Below are positions 13,276 through 23,327 of a stretch of 37,169 nucleotides of DNA, in pieces. Each line of letters opens with the position of its first letter. Positions within the stretch are counted from its first letter, which is position 1. The notes under the pieces were generated by a model that made no database searches, had not been told where the DNA came from, and was given only the letters and a program-made list of their open reading frames with translations. The translations under genes were made by a program, and so were the position numbers. Source of the DNA: Desulfobacterales bacterium (GTDB lineage: Bacteria > Desulfobacterota > Desulfobacteria > Desulfobacterales > Desulfosalsimonadaceae). The stretch is from NCBI GenBank assembly GCA_007134875.1, contig SLJY01000057.1, positions 1 through 37,169 of the forward strand, given 5' to 3'.

Positions 13276-14382
13276 ATGCCGTTTCATCCGAATATCCCGT
13301 TTAATGATCTTCCGCTGCTGCCCCCGGAAACAACTGTGCTGACGCCGTCCGTCCTTGAAAAGGCGGCTGAGGCGGGGCAGGCCCTTAAGGAATTTGATCG
13401 CATGAGAGGGGACCTGGAAAGCTGTTCCTTTTTAATGGATTCTCTGGTTCTTCTTGAAGCAAAGGACAGCTCGGAGATCGAGAACATCTATACGTCCCAT
13501 GAGGATCTTTTTATGGCCTCTGCATTGGGACCGGACGGATTCCACCCGGCGACAAGCGAGGTGCTCAGGTATCATGACGCGTTTTGGGAAGCGTGGAATG
13601 CCGTCTGCAAGCGTTCCTTTATCGCCACCTCGCTATGTGTGGAGATTGTTCGCAGGATCAAGGAAGATCAATCCGGTATAAGGCGGTTGCCCGGGGCCAG
13701 GATTGTGGACTTTGCCGCCGGAAAAGTGGTGTACGCACCGCCCGAAGGAGAATCGCTCATCAGGAAAAAGCTGAAAAATCTGGAGGATTTCATCCATTCC
13801 GGCGACGGCATGGACCCGTTGGTCAAGCTATCATTGGCTCACTACCAGTTTGAGGCCATCCATCCCTTTCCAGACGGAAACGGGCGTACCGGGCGCATTC
13901 TGAACATATTGCTTCTGCAGCTTTATGGACTGCTGGGACATCCGGGGTTGAATCTGAGCCGCTACATTGTTCAAAGGGAGCGTGAATACTACAGGTTGCT
14001 CAATGAGGTCTCTGAAAAAGGTGCTTGGGAACCGTGGATCCTTTTCATGATGGAAGCGATCCGGGAAACGGCAACCCGGTCTTTAGAAATAATTTCAGCT
14101 ATCCGGAAGCTGGTTGCGGAAACTGCTGAAAAAGCAGAAAGGGATTTGCCCCCCGGCGTCTCTCCGAACACCTTGGCCGCATGGATATTTCGTCAACCCT
14201 ATGTCCGAACCCGGTCTCTTGTTGATGCAGGTGTTGCGGAAAAGGGCGTCGCGGAAGACTGCTTCGGAAAGCTGGAAGAAATTGGCGTAGTAAAAAAAGT
14301 GGATACGGATGGCGGGACGCTCTTTTATAACGAAGCATTGTTTGATGCACTCGTAAAAAGTCGTGATCTGGCGGCTTTGTAA
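13276..14382 (+). CDS. Fic family AMP-transferase-type protein with N-terminal inhibitory motif
   Basis: This 368-residue protein has the canonical Fic motif HPFPDGNGRTGR at residues 196-207, with the catalytic histidine, anion-binding loop and arginines intact. Such proteins usually transfer AMP from ATP to a target side chain. SSEIEN at residues 65-70 fits the (S/T)xxxE(G/N) inhibitory helix of class II Fic proteins, so activity is probably self-restrained. A winged-helix-like C-terminal region follows (about 290-360). Targets are unknown and no antitoxin gene adjoins. The last 13 residues and the stop codon come from inserted element A6. Without it, the frame would continue through the second target copy as DLLIQ and stop at 14515-14517. 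The start has no strong ribosome-binding site, and element A5 lies directly upstream. Confidence 0.92.
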   Translation: MPFHPNIPFNDLPLLPPETTVLTPSVLEKAAEAGQALKEFDRMRGDLESCSFLMDSLVLLEAKDSSEIENIYTSHEDLFMASALGPDGFHPATSEVLRYHDAFWEAWNAVCKRSFIATSLCVEIVRRIKEDQSGIRRLPGARIVDFAAGKVVYAPPEGESLIRKKLKNLEDFIHSGDGMDPLVKLSLAHYQFEAIHPFPDGNGRTGRILNILLLQLYGLLGHPGLNLSRYIVQREREYYRLLNEVSEKGAWEPWILFMMEAIRETATRSLEIISAIRKLVAETAEKAERDLPPGVSPNTLAAWIFRQPYVRTRSLVDAGVAEKGVAEDCFGKLEEIGVVKKVDTDGGTLFYNEALFDALVKSRDLAAL

Positions 14383-14492
14383 AAATTTCAAGATCAAGGC
14401 TTGCGCAATTTCGAGGAATGCAGCGTACTTGGCGTAGGTGAGATTCTGAGGAATTGGGCATAACGAAGATATTGGACTTTTACGAAGCCGTC
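14344..14492 (+). mobile_element. Family A MITE-like element, copy A6, in the 3' end of the Fic gene
   Basis: A complete 149-bp copy beginning GATGCACTCGTAAAAAGTC and ending CTTTTACGAAGCCGTC. It has a perfect 7-bp target duplication, ATTGTTT, at 14337-14343 and 14493-14499. Its first 39 bases are translated as the Fic C-terminus and provide the TAA stop. Confidence 0.92.
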
Positions 14493-14541: not shown

Positions 14542-14846
14542 GACGATTTCGTATAAAGTCCAATATCTTCGTTACACGCGATTGCTCAGGGTTTCACGTG
14601 CGCCAGGTGCTTTTATTCTTCGAAATCACGCAAGCCTTAATTTTGACGGCTTCGTAAAAAGTCCAATATCTGCGTTACGCGCGATTTCTCAGAATTTCAC
14701 GTACGCCAAGTACGCTGCATTCTTCAAAATCGCGCAAGCCTTGATCTTGAACTTTTTACAAAGCCGTCAGATCGCGACTTTTTACGAGTGCATCAATTTT
14801 GAACTTTTAACAAATTCATTGGATCACAAATTTTTACGGTTCCATC
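14542..14846 (-). mobile_element. Family A MITE-like element, copy A7 (split by A8)
   Basis: This reverse-orientation copy runs from GACGATTTCG at 14542 to CCATC at 14846 and is interrupted by A8 at 14645-14794. Joining the two halves gives an uninterrupted family A sequence (CAAGCCTTAATTTTGAAC across the join). Its own flanks, ATTGTTT (14535-14541) and AATGTTT (14847-14853), agree at six of seven positions. With A6 and A8 it accounts for almost all of the 514-bp spacer between the Fic gene and gdhA. Confidence 0.85.
14645..14794 (-). mobile_element. Family A MITE-like element, copy A8, inserted in A7
   Basis: A well-preserved 150-bp copy from GACGGCTTCGTAAAAAGTCC to CTTTTTACGAGTGCATC, flanked by the 6-bp duplication AATTTT at 14639-14644 and 14795-14800. 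It is closest to the consensus, suggesting recent activity. Confidence 0.92.
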
Positions 14847-14896: not shown

Positions 14897-16183
14897 GTGG
14901 AAAAATCTTACAACCCGTATGAGAACGCACAGGCGCAGTTTGACGCGGTTGCGCAATTGATCAACCTTGACGAGGGAACGCGGGATCTGCTGCGGCAGCC
15001 CCTGAGGGAATATCATGTTTTGATTCCGGTGCACATGGATGACGGAAGCACAAAGGTATTCAAGGGTTTCCGCATACAGCACAATGATGCCAGGGGTCCG
15101 GCCAAGGGGGGGATCCGCTTCCATCCCCATGAAACCGCCGATACGGTACGGGCGCTATCCATGTGGATGACCTGGAAGTGCGCCCTGGTGGATATTCCTC
15201 TCGGGGGGGGCAAGGGAGGCGTTATATGCGACCCTCATCATCTGAGCGAAGCCGAGCAGGAAAGGCTTTGCAGGGGCTGGGTTCGGCAGTTGTCAAAAGT
15301 GATGGGGCCAGCGCTGGACGTGCCCGCTCCCGATGTCATGACCAGTGCAAAACACATGCTCTGGATGCTCGATGAATTCGAAACCGTCCACGGAGGACGG
15401 TATCCGGGGTTTATCACCGGAAAGCCCGTTGGAATGGGCGGCTCCCTGGGCAGGACCGAAGCGACGGGGTACGGCGTCATCTACATATTGAGACAGGCCC
15501 TGAAGGATCTGGGCATAAAGATTGAAGACGCCACTGTCTGTTTCCAGGGGTTCGGCAATGTAGCCCAGTATGCCGGCAGGCTGTTCACTGAACTCGGGGG
15601 AACCGTCCTGGCCGTTTCCTGTTGGGACAACAATGCGCATCAGGCGTTTACTTTTCGGAAAAAAGACGGCATAGATGTCAATAAACTGGCTGCCATTACA
15701 AGCGCCTATGGAACCGTCGACCGGGAGAAGGCCCAGGCAGACGGGATTGAAGTGCTTCCGGGCGAGGAATGGATCTCCCAGGAAGTCGATGTCCTCGTTC
15801 CGTCGGCGCTGGAAAACCAGATCACGCCGGCAAACGCCGACAAGATCGGCAAGTCGGTGAAAGTGATCGCCGAAGGCGCCAACGGCCCGACCACACCCGA
15901 TGCGGATGAGATCATCAAGGAGCGGGGAATCTTTCTGATCCCTGATTTTCTGACAAATTCCGGTGGCGTGACATGCAGCTACTTTGAGCAGGTCCAGTCC
16001 AACACGAACTTTTTTTGGGAGAAAGACGAAGTTCTTGAAAAACTGGACAGCAAGCTGACGCATGCCTACAGGTCCCTTTATTCCCTTGCCGGGCGGAAGA
16101 ATCTGTATATGCGGGATGCGGCCTATGTCATTGCCATCAACCGGGTGGTGGACGCGGTCCGGATGCGCGGATGGGTCAGATGA
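14897..16183 (+). CDS. gdhA: Glutamate dehydrogenase (Glu/Leu/Phe/Val family)
   Basis: This enzyme interconverts glutamate with 2-oxoglutarate and ammonia using NAD(P). At 428 residues it matches the short hexameric class. Conserved blocks include KGFRIQHNDARGPAKGGIRF, the substrate lysine region PLGGGKGGV, PAPDVMT, and a dinucleotide fold with GFGNVAQYAG. The C-terminal helices (MRDAAYVIAINRV) are complete. The reading frame is open for another 133 codons upstream, but that part is translated from repeat elements A7 and A8. The GTG at 14897, with a purine-rich AGGGGGG about 11 bases before it, is where family similarity begins. Transcription probably starts within or before the repeat cluster. 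Coenzyme preference is not certain. Confidence 0.95.
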   Translation: MEKSYNPYENAQAQFDAVAQLINLDEGTRDLLRQPLREYHVLIPVHMDDGSTKVFKGFRIQHNDARGPAKGGIRFHPHETADTVRALSMWMTWKCALVDIPLGGGKGGVICDPHHLSEAEQERLCRGWVRQLSKVMGPALDVPAPDVMTSAKHMLWMLDEFETVHGGRYPGFITGKPVGMGGSLGRTEATGYGVIYILRQALKDLGIKIEDATVCFQGFGNVAQYAGRLFTELGGTVLAVSCWDNNAHQAFTFRKKDGIDVNKLAAITSAYGTVDREKAQADGIEVLPGEEWISQEVDVLVPSALENQITPANADKIGKSVKVIAEGANGPTTPDADEIIKERGIFLIPDFLTNSGGVTCSYFEQVQSNTNFFWEKDEVLEKLDSKLTHAYRSLYSLAGRKNLYMRDAAYVIAINRVVDAVRMRGWVR

Positions 16184-16207
16184 AGACCAGCCGTCATCCT
16201 TAAGGTT

Positions 16208-16355
16208 GATGCACTCGTAAAAGGTGGCGATCCGACCGCTTTGTAAAAGGTCCAAGATCAAGGCTTACGCGATTTCGAAGAAAAGAGTTTACTTAGGGTT
16301 CGTGAAATTTTGAGAAATCGCGCGTAATACAGATATTGGACTTTCACGAAGCCGT
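16208..16355 (+). mobile_element. Family A MITE-like element, copy A10
   Basis: A full copy from GATGCACTCGTAAAAGG to CTTTCACGAAGCCGT. The flanks AAGGTT (16202-16207) and AAGGTC (16356-16361) match at five of six positions, supporting a target duplication. It starts 25 bp after the gdhA stop. Confidence 0.87.
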
Positions 16356-16465: not shown

Positions 16466-19400
16466 ATGAACGACAAAACCAATTCGAAAGAATACCTCCT
16501 CGATGTGCTGCAGGAACGCGCCAAGGAGTTGAATTGTCTCTACCGGATCGACGAAATTCTCAACGACGAAGCCTTGTCCTTGCCGGAAATCTTTTACCAC
16601 GTCATAACGGCTTTGCCTGAAGGTTTCCGGTTTCCTGAAATCTGCCGGGCCAGAATCGTTTATAAAGACGAAACCTATGAATCGGAGGGATATATCCCCT
16701 CGGAGATCTCCGAAAAAGCGGATATCAAGGTGGAAGATAGCGTCGTCGGTTTTGTGGAGGCTATCTATACGCGGGAAGTGCAGCGGATCGACGATGATTT
16801 TTTCCTCAGCAAGGAGCGCCAGTTGCTGAGGACCATCGCGTATCGCATCGGTCAAACCATCATGTACCGCGAAATGAAGCAGAGGGCTCACAAGTGGAAT
16901 GTCCCTGCTTCGTCAGACGAAGCAAGAACGGCGGCGAATCCCGAATGGAAGATCATCACGGATCTTTTGCTTCGGACCGATCCGGATATGGCAATGCACG
17001 TGTGCCGCCGGATGATCAATCATCTGTCCGGGAAGGGGGTCAGGGGGGGCACTGGCAATACCGATATTTTCAGCCCCGGTCCCCTCCGCCAGTTTCTGAC
17101 CGGTGAAGTCAATGCCCCGGGAGAAAAAGTCAGCGTCAACGAAATGACACATATTGTCGAAGAGACTTTCAGCCACGCTTCGGAGCACATGAGCGAAACG
17201 GAAATATCGGCACTGATACAGAGATGGATACAGGAAGAAAAAGCCAGTTCGCTTATCAAGGCTGTTGACCGGATTGACGCCTCCATTGGTGAAATCGTCG
17301 AGGCCATAACGCGTTATCACAACCTCATGGGCGAAAGCGATCAGTCCTCCTTCCGATCGGAAAGGTGGCTGGAGGTCGCCCTGATCCGGCGGTTTTTAAC
17401 GGACAATCTCGATTTTATAAGAATCGCAAGGCCGTTTCTGAAAATCGACGATTTCTATGATATTGCATCCCGGCTGATTTATCCATCCGGTAGCCATGGC
17501 AAGATCGGCGGTAAGGCCACAGGGATTTTTATCGCCCAGAAAATCATCAACAGGATGAAGGAGAAGAATCCGCTTCTTGAATCAGTCAGGGTACCCAAGG
17601 CATGGTACATCACAACGGACGAGATCAAGGAGTTCCTGCAATACAACAATCTTCAGGAACTCAATGAACAGAAGTACAAGGAACTGGAAGAAGTCCGCAT
17701 CAATTACCCCCAGATCATTCAGCTGCTGAAAAATTCCCGCTTTCCGCCAGAACTTGTGAAGAGCCTTGCCATGGCTTTGGACGATTTCGGCCAAAATCCC
17801 CTGATTGTTCGCAGCTCCAGCATCCTCGAGGACCAGGTGGGCGCCGCTTTTTCGGGCAAGTACAAAAGCCTGTTTCTGGGCAACCAAGGCACCAAGAAGC
17901 AGCGACTGGAAGCCGTGATGGATGCCATTACGGAAATTTACGCATCCATGTACAGTCCCGACTCCGTTCAATATCGCGCGGAGAGGGGGATGCTGGATTT
18001 TCACGAGGAAATGGGCATTATTATCCAGGAGGTGGTTGGACGGCGTATAGGTCCGTATTTCATGCCGTTGTACGCCGGGGTTGCGTTCAGCAACAATGAG
18101 TTTCGCTGGTCGCCGCGAATCAGCCGGGAGGACGGACTGGTCCGGATGGTCATGGGGCTTGGCACGCGCGCGGTGGATCGTCTCAACGACGATTTTCCCA
18201 TTCTCATATCACCCGGCCAGCCGACGCTGCGGGTGAACACGATGCCCGAGGAGGTCAAACGGTATTCTCCCAAGAGAATCGATCTGCTGAACCTGGAAAA
18301 CAACAGCTTCGAAAGCGTTGATATTTCAGGATTCCTGAAACACTATGGTCCGCTGGTGCCTGGGCTGCCGGACATTGTTTCCGTATACAGGGGCGATTAC
18401 ATACACAGAACATCCATTATGGACATCGATTTCCACCAGGACGACCTGGTTGTCACTTTCGAAGGCGTAGCCGCAAAAACGGGCTTCGTCAAAACCATTA
18501 AGACAATGCTCGAAGTGCTTCGGGAAAATATGCAGACCCCTGTGGACATCGAGTTTGCCTTTGACGGGCGGCATCTGTACCTTCTGCAATGCCGGTCCCA
18601 AAGTTCCCGGGAGGAAAGCGCGCCCGGGCCCATTCCCAGGGATATCGACAAAAAGGATATTGTTTTTTCAGCAAGGAAGCACATATCCAATGGCATTGTA
18701 TCCGATATTTCCCACGTCGTTTATGTCGACCCGGAGGGATACAACGAATTACGGTCCCTGGACGATCTGGCTGCCGTGGGGCGCGTTGTCAGCAAGATCA
18801 ACGCTGTACTCCCCAAGCGGTGTTTCATTCTGATGGGGCCGGGCCGATGGGGAAGCAGGGGGGATATCAAGCTCGGTGTTCAGGTCAGTTACGCGGACAT
18901 CAATAATTGTTCTGCAATCATTGAAATCGCAAAAAGAAAATCGAACTATGTTCCCGAGTTGTCGTTCGGCACCCATTTCTTCCAGGATCTGGTGGAAGCC
19001 AACATTCGTTACCTTCCCCTTTATCCCGATGATGAGGGAATTGTTTTCAAAAACGTGTTCTTTTCGCGTTCAAAAAACATGCTGCCCCAGCTTCTTCCGG
19101 AATACGGCTGGCTTTCGAATGTTATCAAGGTGATCGACGTTCCCGATTCGACCAACGGAAAGGTACTCCAGATTTCCATGAATGCCGAGATCGGAGAAGC
19201 CATCGGTTTTCTCACGCAAAGTTCCGGTGAAAGATCCGTTCCCGTCAGTGAAATACTGGCGGGCAAGAAAATTGAACGGCACGAGGATATACGCTTCGAT
19301 GACAAGTTCTGGCAATGGCGGTCCTACATGGCCGAATGCATCGCCGAGCGTCTCGACCCCTCGCGCTTCGGGGTCAAAAACGCATACCTGACCGGGAGTG

Positions 19401-19684
19401 TGAACAGCGGAACTGCCGGGCCGGGAAGCGACATCGACATGATATTTCATTTTACGGGCGATCAGGATCAGAAAAAGGAACTGGAGCTATGGCTTGAAGG
19501 CTGGAGCATGGCCCTTGCCGAAATCAACTACCTCAAAACCGGATACTCCTCCGAAGGGTTGCTGGATGCGCACATTATCACCGATGAAGATGTTGCCAAC
19601 AAGACGTCCTATGCCTATAAAATCGGCGCGGTTACTGATCCGGCGACGCCCCTGCGTGTTTTTGGAAAAAAGAACAGGAATTGA
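16466..19684 (+). CDS. PEP/pyruvate-binding (PPDK N-domain) protein with C-terminal nucleotidyltransferase motif
   Basis: This 1,072-residue cytosolic protein begins with a GAF-like region (about 1-140) and a helical linker. A PEP synthase/pyruvate phosphate dikinase-type ATP-grasp domain follows (about 340-710), with GGKATGIF, the conserved VRSSSILEDQ block and a terminal LYLLQCRSQS motif. The phosphohistidine swivel domain and PEP-binding TIM barrel of true PEP synthases are absent. A conserved middle region (FILMGPGRWGSRGDIKLGV) precedes a C-terminal segment near residue 975, LTGSVNSG then GPGSDIDMIF, which matches the GS-x(n)-DxD motif of the polymerase-beta nucleotidyltransferase superfamily. 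It probably phosphorylates or nucleotidylates something using ATP, but the substrate is unknown. Neighbours give no clear clue. Confidence 0.85.
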   Translation: MNDKTNSKEYLLDVLQERAKELNCLYRIDEILNDEALSLPEIFYHVITALPEGFRFPEICRARIVYKDETYESEGYIPSEISEKADIKVEDSVVGFVEAIYTREVQRIDDDFFLSKERQLLRTIAYRIGQTIMYREMKQRAHKWNVPASSDEARTAANPEWKIITDLLLRTDPDMAMHVCRRMINHLSGKGVRGGTGNTDIFSPGPLRQFLTGEVNAPGEKVSVNEMTHIVEETFSHASEHMSETEISALIQRWIQEEKASSLIKAVDRIDASIGEIVEAITRYHNLMGESDQSSFRSERWLEVALIRRFLTDNLDFIRIARPFLKIDDFYDIASRLIYPSGSHGKIGGKATGIFIAQKIINRMKEKNPLLESVRVPKAWYITTDEIKEFLQYNNLQELNEQKYKELEEVRINYPQIIQLLKNSRFPPELVKSLAMALDDFGQNPLIVRSSSILEDQVGAAFSGKYKSLFLGNQGTKKQRLEAVMDAITEIYASMYSPDSVQYRAERGMLDFHEEMGIIIQEVVGRRIGPYFMPLYAGVAFSNNEFRWSPRISREDGLVRMVMGLGTRAVDRLNDDFPILISPGQPTLRVNTMPEEVKRYSPKRIDLLNLENNSFESVDISGFLKHYGPLVPGLPDIVSVYRGDYIHRTSIMDIDFHQDDLVVTFEGVAAKTGFVKTIKTMLEVLRENMQTPVDIEFAFDGRHLYLLQCRSQSSREESAPGPIPRDIDKKDIVFSARKHISNGIVSDISHVVYVDPEGYNELRSLDDLAAVGRVVSKINAVLPKRCFILMGPGRWGSRGDIKLGVQVSYADINNCSAIIEIAKRKSNYVPELSFGTHFFQDLVEANIRYLPLYPDDEGIVFKNVFFSRSKNMLPQLLPEYGWLSNVIKVIDVPDSTNGKVLQISMNAEIGEAIGFLTQSSGERSVPVSEILAGKKIERHEDIRFDDKFWQWRSYMAECIAERLDPSRFGVKNAYLTGSVNSGTAGPGSDIDMIFHFTGDQDQKKELELWLEGWSMALAEINYLKTGYSSEGLLDAHIITDEDVANKTSYAYKIGAVTDPATPLRVFGKKNRN

Positions 19685-20465: not shown

Positions 20466-20555
20466 ATTTCTTTAATGCATATTTTCAACCTATGCTTAAG
20501 TTCAAAAGTAAATCGGAATGATGTTTCTGCAAACCATAAACCGAAGGAGACCGAG

Positions 20556-20816
20556 ATGCCTGATACCCCGGAAATCATGGTTTACACACTGAGCACCTGC
20601 GGGCATTGCAAGAAGACCAAGCAGCTGCTCAATGAGTGTAATGTAGCGTATAACAATGTCGATGTGGATACGCTTGCCAGCGAAGAGCGGCAGAATGTAC
20701 TCGAAGATGTTAAAAAAATCAACCCAAAGGTGTCGTTTCCCACGACGAAAATCGGAGACGAGGTGATTGTCGGTCACCATGAAGACAAGATCAAGGAGGC
20801 ATTGGGGATTTCATGA
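20556..20816 (+). CDS. Glutaredoxin-like thiol-disulfide protein
   Basis: This 86-residue glutaredoxin fold has the active site CGHC (C15, C18), a TT-P loop in SFPTTKIGDEVIVG, and a C-terminal helix. Such short glutaredoxins (NrdH-like) usually pass electrons to reductases. GAAGGAGA (about 20543-20550) fixes the start; the longer reading is not needed. The next gene overlaps its stop codon by four bases (ATGA) and encodes an FTR catalytic-type protein, so the two are translationally coupled. They probably form one redox relay in which the FTR protein reduces the glutaredoxin. Confidence 0.92.
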   Translation: MPDTPEIMVYTLSTCGHCKKTKQLLNECNVAYNNVDVDTLASEERQNVLEDVKKINPKVSFPTTKIGDEVIVGHHEDKIKEALGIS

Positions 20817-21142
20817 AACCGGAAGAACTCTACGAGAAGCTCCGAAAGATCCAGGAGCCGAAAGGATATTTTTTTAACAGGGACAAGGAGTTGGTCATGG
20901 AGCTGCTTGACGGATTGTTGAAGCGCAAGGAGAAAGACGGGTACATGACCTGCCCCTGCCGCCTTTCCACGGGCGATTACGAATCCGACAAGGACATCAC
21001 CTGTCCCTGTGTCTATCGCGAACCGGATGTGAAGGAATACGGGAGCTGCTACTGCGGCCTGTATGTGTCAAAGGCGTGGAACGAAGACCGGATTGTCCGC
21101 GAATTCGTACCGGAAAGGCGTCCCCCGGAAAAGATCAAGTAG
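20813..21142 (+). CDS. Ferredoxin-thioredoxin reductase catalytic-subunit-like protein
   Basis: This 109-residue protein has the three cysteine pairs of the FTR catalytic subunit: CPC (C47, C49), CPC (C64, C66) and CYC (C79, C81). In the known enzyme these hold a [4Fe-4S] cluster next to a redox disulfide and reduce thioredoxin with electrons from ferredoxin. The last motif is CYC where the chloroplast and cyanobacterial enzymes have CHC with a catalytic histidine. No variable-chain gene is nearby. It overlaps the glutaredoxin gene, the likely target. Its TAG stop codon (21140-21142) coincides with the first bases of element B3. Confidence 0.92.
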   Translation: MKPEELYEKLRKIQEPKGYFFNRDKELVMELLDGLLKRKEKDGYMTCPCRLSTGDYESDKDITCPCVYREPDVKEYGSCYCGLYVSKAWNEDRIVREFVPERRPPEKIK

Positions 21143-22761: not shown

Positions 22762-23177
22762 TTTCAGTAGACAGCGTTTCCCTGTTTTTGCGCATCAAGG
22801 AAAAATATATGCAGCTTCCGCTCATGCTCTATGCCCTGAAAAGCGATTATAGCACTGAAAAGTTTCAATCAGGCCATCACCATGGCCTTCAGGGAGCGCA
22901 GCGCAGGTCGGCGGAAAAGAAGCTGAACCATTCGTATGCGGGTTTCACCGCACACCACCCTACCAAAAGTCGCAATTGGACGACTGCGGCTTTTTCTCGC
23001 TTTCCGATCTACGTTTTTTGACAATCACCCAAAATAGTCTTGATCGATCAGCGGATAGAAACTATAGTGACTAATTTTAGTGGTCGCTGACAGGCACCGC
23101 CTTTCCGGCGTGGAACAGAAAACTTCTTGCATAATAACCGCAGCGGGTTTTAAAACAATCGTGATGCGATAAGAACT
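22762..23177. other. Spacer without recognisable genes
   Basis: About 415 bp between the repeat remnant and copy A12. Short open frames occur on both strands (for example 22737-23021, plus strand), but none has a ribosome-binding site, family resemblance or convincing composition. No terminator or promoter stands out. Confidence 0.5.
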
Positions 23178-23327
23178 GATGCACTCGTAAAGAGTCACGA
23201 TCTTACGGTTTTGTAAAAAGTTCAAGGTCAAGGCTTGCGTGATTTCGAAGAATACAGACTGCTTAGCGTGCGTAAAATTTTGAGAAAGCGCGCGCAACGC
23301 AGGTATTGGACTTTTTACGAAGCCGTC
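23178..23327 (+). mobile_element. Family A MITE-like element, copy A12
   Basis: A complete 150-bp copy from GATGCACTCGTAAAGAGTC to CTTTTTACGAAGCCGTC. The flanks AAGAACT (23171-23177) and GAGAACT (23328-23334) match at six of seven bases, an evident target duplication. It lies 45 bp upstream of the HdrA/QmoB-like gene, in or near its promoter region. Confidence 0.9.

Follow-up and report, generated by a model that had tools for sequence, protein, structure and literature searches.

A conserved GAF, ATP-grasp and nucleotidyltransferase fusion linked to glutamate dehydrogenase and its possible role as a covalent regulator

What does a dikinase-like protein do that lacks the barrel of phosphoenolpyruvate (PEP) synthase, ends in a nucleotidyltransferase (NTase) and is encoded directly behind a glutamate dehydrogenase (GDH) gene? 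This question is raised by contig SLJY01000057.1 of a Desulfobacterales bacterium (assembly GCA_007134875.1), of which the whole stretch of 37,169 nucleotides was analysed (here called the window). The open reading frame (ORF) at 16466-19684 on the forward strand runs through 1072 uninterrupted codons, and we refer to its product as the fusion. Tentatively, we propose that it is a GAF-controlled phosphohistidine-type phosphotransferase combined with an NTase, serving as a dedicated covalent regulator of the adjoining GDH; from the features described below we infer both the catalysis and the target. The features (window coordinates, all on the forward strand) are:

14897-16183, +, glutamate dehydrogenase, 428 aa with the start set by homology; the gene immediately before that of the fusion
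16466-19684, +, full fusion protein of 1072 aa: GAF, helical linker, ATP-grasp, divergent swivel (phosphohistidine) and nucleotidyltransferase, in this order
16493-16900, +, GAF-type sensory domain, residues 10-145 (fold match)
17384-18613, +, PPDK_N ATP-grasp domain, residues about 307-716 (Pfam, conservation and fold)
18629-19225, +, probable divergent swivelling phosphohistidine domain, residues 722-920 (fold; without Pfam match)
18974-18976, +, codon of His837, candidate phosphorylated histidine, in GTHFFQDLVEANI (conservation)
19238-19681, +, nucleotidyltransferase domain, residues 925-1072 (Pfam, conservation and fold)
19394-19438, +, GS...GSDID motif of the NTase, G977 to D991 (residue conservation)
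19565-19567, +, codon of Asp1034, third NTase carboxylate (conservation; a predicted strand starts there)

The NTase motif at the C-terminus is genuine. Pfam reports NTP_transf_2 at residues 966-1009 (27.9 bits against a cut-off of 21) next to PPDK_N at residues 346-726 (E 8.5e-60, 203 bits against 27), both above cut-off, and the translation reads LTGSVNSG at residues 975-982 and GSDIDMIF at 987-994. G977, S978, G985, S988, D989, D991 and D1034 are invariant in all 19 full-length proteins and recur in 12 of 12 further sequences from a single order (that of genome G421). Because all 24 homologues that reach the C-terminus keep these residues as well, the motif is more than chance; NTP_transf_2 itself was found by Pfam in 24 of 25 rows, and the one exception is an N-terminal half. 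AlphaFold models were obtained for residues 722-1072 (mean pLDDT 80, pTM 0.62) and for the full-length fusion (75 and 0.58). The top matches of the predicted C-terminal fold are NTases (2rff, MNT antitoxins, HI0073, AadA) with Z values of 6.0-6.7, moderate by the tool's own note, at a root-mean-square deviation (rmsd) of 3.3-4.9 over 95-106 residues; the antibiotic NTases LinB and ANT also appear among the fold matches, which include aminoglycoside NTases. Foldseek returns weak E-values (best 0.02).

In the ATP-grasp domain K350, R449, D694, E696, Q708 and R710 are invariant in the 19 full-length proteins, with which the 12 further sequences agree. Across all tiers of relatives K350, R449, E696, Q708 and R710 remain invariant, and residue 694 is an Asp in 59 of the covering rows and a Glu in 14. 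The domain can be aligned to rifampin phosphotransferase (RPH), for which it is reported that in RPH-Lm Lys22 and Arg117 position the phosphates and that Glu297 appears to bind Mg (PMC4844700). Following the alignment, R449 and E696 would pair with Arg117 and Glu297. K350 presumably corresponds to Lys22, judging by motif position.

Between the ATP-grasp domain and the NTase, Pfam gives no match for residues 727-940 and finds no PEP/pyruvate barrel in the protein; the NCBIfam PEP synthase models score far below their cut-offs and cover parts of the ATP-grasp region only. Residues 307-918 superpose on residues 13-467 of a PEP synthase (2ols; Z 25.4, 373 residues, rmsd 3.8), and residues 306-922 superpose on PPDKs at a higher rmsd. 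Taken alone, residues 722-920 find two kinds of match, at Z values in the range of which the tool warns: the RPH swivel domain (5fbu 755-867, Z 5.2) and the domain at the C-terminus of pyruvate kinases (3t05 474-583 at Z 5.6, and 2e28; Z 5.5-5.6). With single-domain values in that range, three other observations carry the case for a swivel domain: the joint superposition, the location of His837 where a predicted helix (836-845) begins, and the likeness between SHFF...GIP of distant members and the canonical SHAA...GIP of PF00391 segments. His837 is kept in all 19 full-length proteins, in the 12 further sequences and in the 24 that cover the C-terminus, and when all tiers are taken together (74 rows, the window counted twice) each of the 73 covering rows has His there; in locus L053 the GPGRWGS motif is degenerate and the equivalent of His837 is still His. 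It is thus highly likely that the mid domain is a divergent swivel (phosphohistidine) domain, in which His837 would be the equivalent of the swivel histidine, and the PEP/pyruvate barrel would then be the sole part of PEP synthase that is truly absent.

For the N-terminus Pfam returned no GAF match. By fold, residues 10-145 match many GAF domains at Z 10-13.5, among them 3cit (13.5), 4g3k (12.6), NifA 8jrc (12.2) and PtsP 3trc (11.6), and the domain searched in its own genome finds the fusion as sole match. Where the fusion has its GAF domain, five of five distant relatives scanned match a receiver domain (two of them below the Pfam cut-off), and four of the five are GDH-linked; such receiver-like domains fit a regulated enzyme.

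Part of this had been anticipated by a preliminary description of the locus made from the letters alone. The ORF is present with the coordinates and layout it gave, and the PPDK-type ATP-grasp domain, the GAF-like N-terminus, the NTase metal-binding signature and the lack of a PEP/pyruvate-binding domain (the chain terminates in the NTase instead) are all borne out. Neither of the two outcomes that it named as refuting, DxD residues that vary or a C-terminal segment without NTase fold, was observed. Its statement that the phosphohistidine domain is missing is not supported; the domain seems divergent in view of the superposition on 2ols and the conservation of His837.

The fusion layout is a conserved family across phyla. 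Scanning contigs from 84,980 species with the NTase end yielded 26 loci, labelled Desulfobacterota/Deltaproteobacteria, Bacillota, Spirochaetota, Krumholzibacteriota, Verrucomicrobiota, Calditrichota, Ignavibacteriota and others; these labels come from records of metagenome-assembled genomes, and the 'Planctomycetota' locus L061 (71%) may be mislabelled. Eighteen of the 26 encode full-length proteins that run colinear with that of the window, and the remainder are cut by contig ends or frame-split. Among 395 genomes of the own phylum the NTase end is strongly matched in 2 (own genome included), with 3 weak short matches, and the full-length protein is matched in 151 at E 1e-10, many weaker matches covering the GAF part only. 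The phylum tiers comprise a single full-length protein that carries the NTase (58%), a 930-aa protein that has GAF and no NTase (49%), and further proteins sized about 780 aa (neither GAF nor NTase), about 870 aa or about 1000 aa (the last at 30%). The own draft genome (2.88 Mb) holds a single copy of the fusion gene. In a tree of 81 rows (those with more than 430 residues of region 340-920; quick method, SH-aLRT support only) all 36 NTase-bearing rows fall in a clade of 37, with L062 as the member without NTase. The two changes are read as one gain and one loss, so that the NTase appears to have been gained about once.

The GDH gene of the window lies 282 bases before the fusion ORF on the same strand. 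Its product matches ELFV_dehydrog and ELFV_dehydrog_N in Pfam, and its best NCBIfam model is NF040817 (glutamate dehydrogenase; 476 bits, below the cut-off of 750). In the 26 loci, gathered by NTase sequence alone, GDH precedes the match on the same strand in 20 of the 22 whose upstream sequence reaches 864 bases or more (the other 4 are without upstream sequence), mostly at a distance of 25-55 bases. In three of these 20 (L051, L052 and L057) a PPDK_N paralogue of 580-595 aa stands between GDH and fusion; in L058, where no GDH was seen, such a paralogue takes up the 1.6 kb upstream, and L053, one of the four without upstream sequence, has GDH downstream. All 26 host genomes carry at least one GDH-like gene. 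The G421 order adds 10 of 10 further loci with GDH upstream (2 of 12 are cut off), whereas 0 of 30 control loci with canonical PF00391 have GDH within about 1.5 kb.

The tie reaches beyond the proteins with an NTase. For relatives without it (40 loci fetched, 20 of top rank and 20 of lower tiers), the locus contains GDH in 15 of 20, 8 of 14 and 5 of 6 cases over three increasingly distant tiers, the two genes being frequently, though not in every case, direct neighbours; the GDHs of these tiers are 46-66%, 30-33% and 31-33% identical to that of the window (the GDH of L080 being a partial match near a contig end). As these relatives keep the linkage, the core role does not depend on the NTase. 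Over 63 genomes of one order the co-occurrence is asymmetric: among the 19 genomes with the NTase gene 17 carry a GDH of at least 65% identity, as against 17 among the 44 that lack the gene (Fisher p 1.7e-4, uncorrected for phylogeny). Fifteen of the latter 17 show GDH without an adjoining fusion-type gene, and at L172 and L180 the contig ends inside a fusion relative adjoining GDH; GDH without the fusion is as expected of a dispensable regulator. Overall, we consider it very likely that fusion and GDH are functionally linked. The preliminary description had suggested a modified target without specifying it and made no mention of GDH, which is now a concrete candidate.

Fusion relatives near GDH are also seen in Parabacteroides distasonis, where a record shows the two genes as a divergently transcribed pair; WP_041525632 is a GDH-linked relative from Parabacteroides. 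At L102:3175-12467, in a record of P. distasonis called a plasmid, a relative is flanked by GDH genes on both sides and accompanied by a nucleotidyltransferase family protein and RapZ.

According to the mechanism that we propose, the GAF domain would sense a small ligand and the ATP-grasp domain would use ATP to phosphorylate His837 on the divergent swivel, by dikinase chemistry as in PEP synthase and RPH. From His837 the phosphate would pass to another macromolecule, most likely GDH; an outside acceptor is suggested because the polypeptide has no acceptor-binding domain. The NTase, added once in one clade, may provide a second modifying activity on GDH or on the fusion itself, most likely transfer of AMP or UMP as by GlnE on glutamine synthetase, and a calcineurin-like phosphoesterase whose gene adjoins in 8 of the 26 loci may be an eraser. 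That GDH is covalently modified by at least one of the two activities is quite possible, though we would stop short of calling it probable. The wider reading is more doubtful: a widespread, hitherto unrecognised family of GDH modifiers, in which a minimal ATP-grasp/swivel dikinase, governed by GAF or receiver-like sensors that can be exchanged, would hand phosphate on to GDH by way of His837, and to which one clade spanning many phyla would have added a nucleotidylylating head. SelO, which we take to be unrelated to the NTase of the fusion, is a precedent, by analogy, for the inactivation of GDH by AMPylation. It is described as AMPylating and inactivating mammalian GDH (PMC12375108).

If the wider reading is true, GDH would be under two-layer covalent control, similar to that of GlnE/GlnD on glutamine synthetase. 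The latter is the textbook case of covalent control; to our knowledge, control of GDH at the protein level is poorly known in most bacteria, even though GDH sits at the junction of carbon and nitrogen metabolism. Such control becomes directly testable with a family whose catalytic residues are intact and which is tied, in different phyla, to several subfamilies of GDH, and the role would give a job to proteins annotated only as 'PEP/pyruvate-binding domain-containing protein', as in the Parabacteroides distasonis record. The preliminary description knew of no assigned function for this layout and we found none either: no paper on the layout or its GDH tie turned up in a search whose coverage excludes most subscription journals. 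A report that E. coli GDH is phosphorylated on histidine was looked for there as well and did not turn up. As far as could be seen, the parts are of known kinds while their combination and the GDH tie are undescribed.

Several observations weigh against the proposed mechanism. The adjacency to GDH could instead reflect shared metabolism; relatives without the NTase have no GDH in 5 of 20, 6 of 14 and 1 of 6 loci, and locus L060 has the paralogue and no GDH in 3.9 kb upstream. In the own genus NTase-type or partial copies occur in 3 of 6 draft genomes, and the own genome also encodes GlnE. Comparing the mid domain by hhalign with 18 canonical PF00391 swivel segments (of 30 fetched loci, 18 were usable by motif and 12 were dropped) gave no detection. 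Finally, no column separates 30 GDHs coupled to the fusion from 15 uncoupled ones; T149 is Thr in all 30 coupled and Thr in 8 and Ser in 7 of the uncoupled proteins.

It might be argued that the fusion is a small-molecule dikinase standing beside GDH for metabolic reasons, phosphorylating or activating a metabolite near glutamate or 2-oxoglutarate on which the NTase acts too. The characterised relatives considered here are indeed small-molecule dikinases (RPH, PMC4844700; HpeHI, PMC12167813), and antibiotic NTases are among the C-terminal fold matches. Yet an acceptor-binding domain is not seen even in relatives consisting of a short N-terminal region, the ATP-grasp and the mid domain only, GAF and receiver-like domains at the same position indicate regulation, and no other neighbour gene is as widely shared as GDH; we consider this explanation unlikely, though it deserves attention. 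The lack of an outstanding modification site on GDH would rather suit self-modification, in which the dikinase would be switched through adenylylation of its swivel or ATP-grasp domain by the NTase, while control of GDH would come about by binding and not by covalent change. Structure titles (7ae9, 7aer) describe a HEPN partner AMPylated by MNT-type NTases, which is in its favour, but the GDH linkage persists where the NTase is lacking, and we rate this somewhat lower still. That the NTase was joined on recently by accident and has no function is highly improbable: strong matches in just 2 of the 395 phylum genomes might suggest it, but the idea is already contradicted because the NTase is conserved, with about one gain, retention in 36 of 37 clade rows and all catalytic residues intact.

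Among known systems, the fusion resembles PEP synthase and PPDK in its superposable ATP-grasp and probable swivel domains and in the nucleotide-binding residues kept, but differs by the missing barrel, by the extra GAF and NTase domains and by a [TS]HFF motif where those enzymes have a SHAA-type His motif; the own genome moreover has a separate PF00391 protein (G000:C9). An ordinary PEP synthase is ruled out by the absent barrel. An ATP-grasp and, probably, a His swivel domain are shared with RPH (PMC4844700) and with the two-component dikinase HpeHI (PMC12167813), both of which have a small-molecule acceptor domain, whereas none is seen in the fusion. No drug-binding domain of the RPH type lies between ATP-grasp and swivel, as the mid domain follows the ATP-grasp directly. 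With MNT-type (NTP_transf_2) proteins the fusion shares GS, DxD, the third Asp and the fold, and differs in being joined to a dikinase-like core adjoining GDH. With NF047752, the MntA model, it reaches 19 bits where 60 are required, and an MNT-HEPN toxin-antitoxin system does not apply to a 1072-aa fusion with GDH and a VTT-domain protein as neighbours.

The likeness to GlnE we take to be an analogy in how it works, since in both an NTase that bears an SDID motif is associated with an enzyme of ammonia assimilation; the GlnE catalytic domain PF03710 is absent from the Pfam matches of the fusion at E up to 1. As a general rule the fusion does not substitute for GlnE: although 20 of 27 genomes searched are without a separate GlnE, it is present in the other 7, the own genome included. 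PtsP (EI-Ntr) presumably offers a similar parallel, with GAF ahead of a phosphohistidine protein, and its GAF fold (3trc) matches the N-terminus of the fusion; we assume the difference to be that PtsP receives its phosphate from PEP, whereas the fusion has the ATP-grasp domain instead. A mobile or phage gene was discarded, as no viral relative was confirmed and no plasmid record covered 80% of the query, and so was an RNA element, there being no Rfam match in the window.

The calcineurin-like phosphoesterase mentioned above lies downstream of the fusion on the same strand or convergent to it (L039:10563-11402, L041:10550-11413, L037:1884-2759, L049, L051, L052, L057 and L058). As a constant partner this metallophosphatase was rejected (by tblastn 8 of 26 loci, and 0 of 40 phylum loci). 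The second PPDK_N protein directly upstream of the fusion carries the same His motif and might form a paired system with it (L052:4005-5759, L057:5548-7290, L051, L058 and L060:1911-3872, from Krumholzibacteriia, Ignavibacteriota and Calditrichota records).

Around the window GDH gene, a SoFic-type Fic protein, from a family of protein AMPylators, is encoded upstream at 13276-14382 (+); no counterpart cluster was seen in the other fusion loci. A dispersed intergenic repeat of about 140 bp occurs in both orientations at 14342-14481, 14657-14796, 16206-16344 and 23177-23310, flanking gdh and separating it from the fusion gene. The own draft genome contains at least 47 matches to it, a number obtained by scoring 40 of 299 first-look candidates. 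Further downstream, at 20475-21142, a glutaredoxin is followed directly by a homologue of the ferredoxin-thioredoxin reductase catalytic chain.

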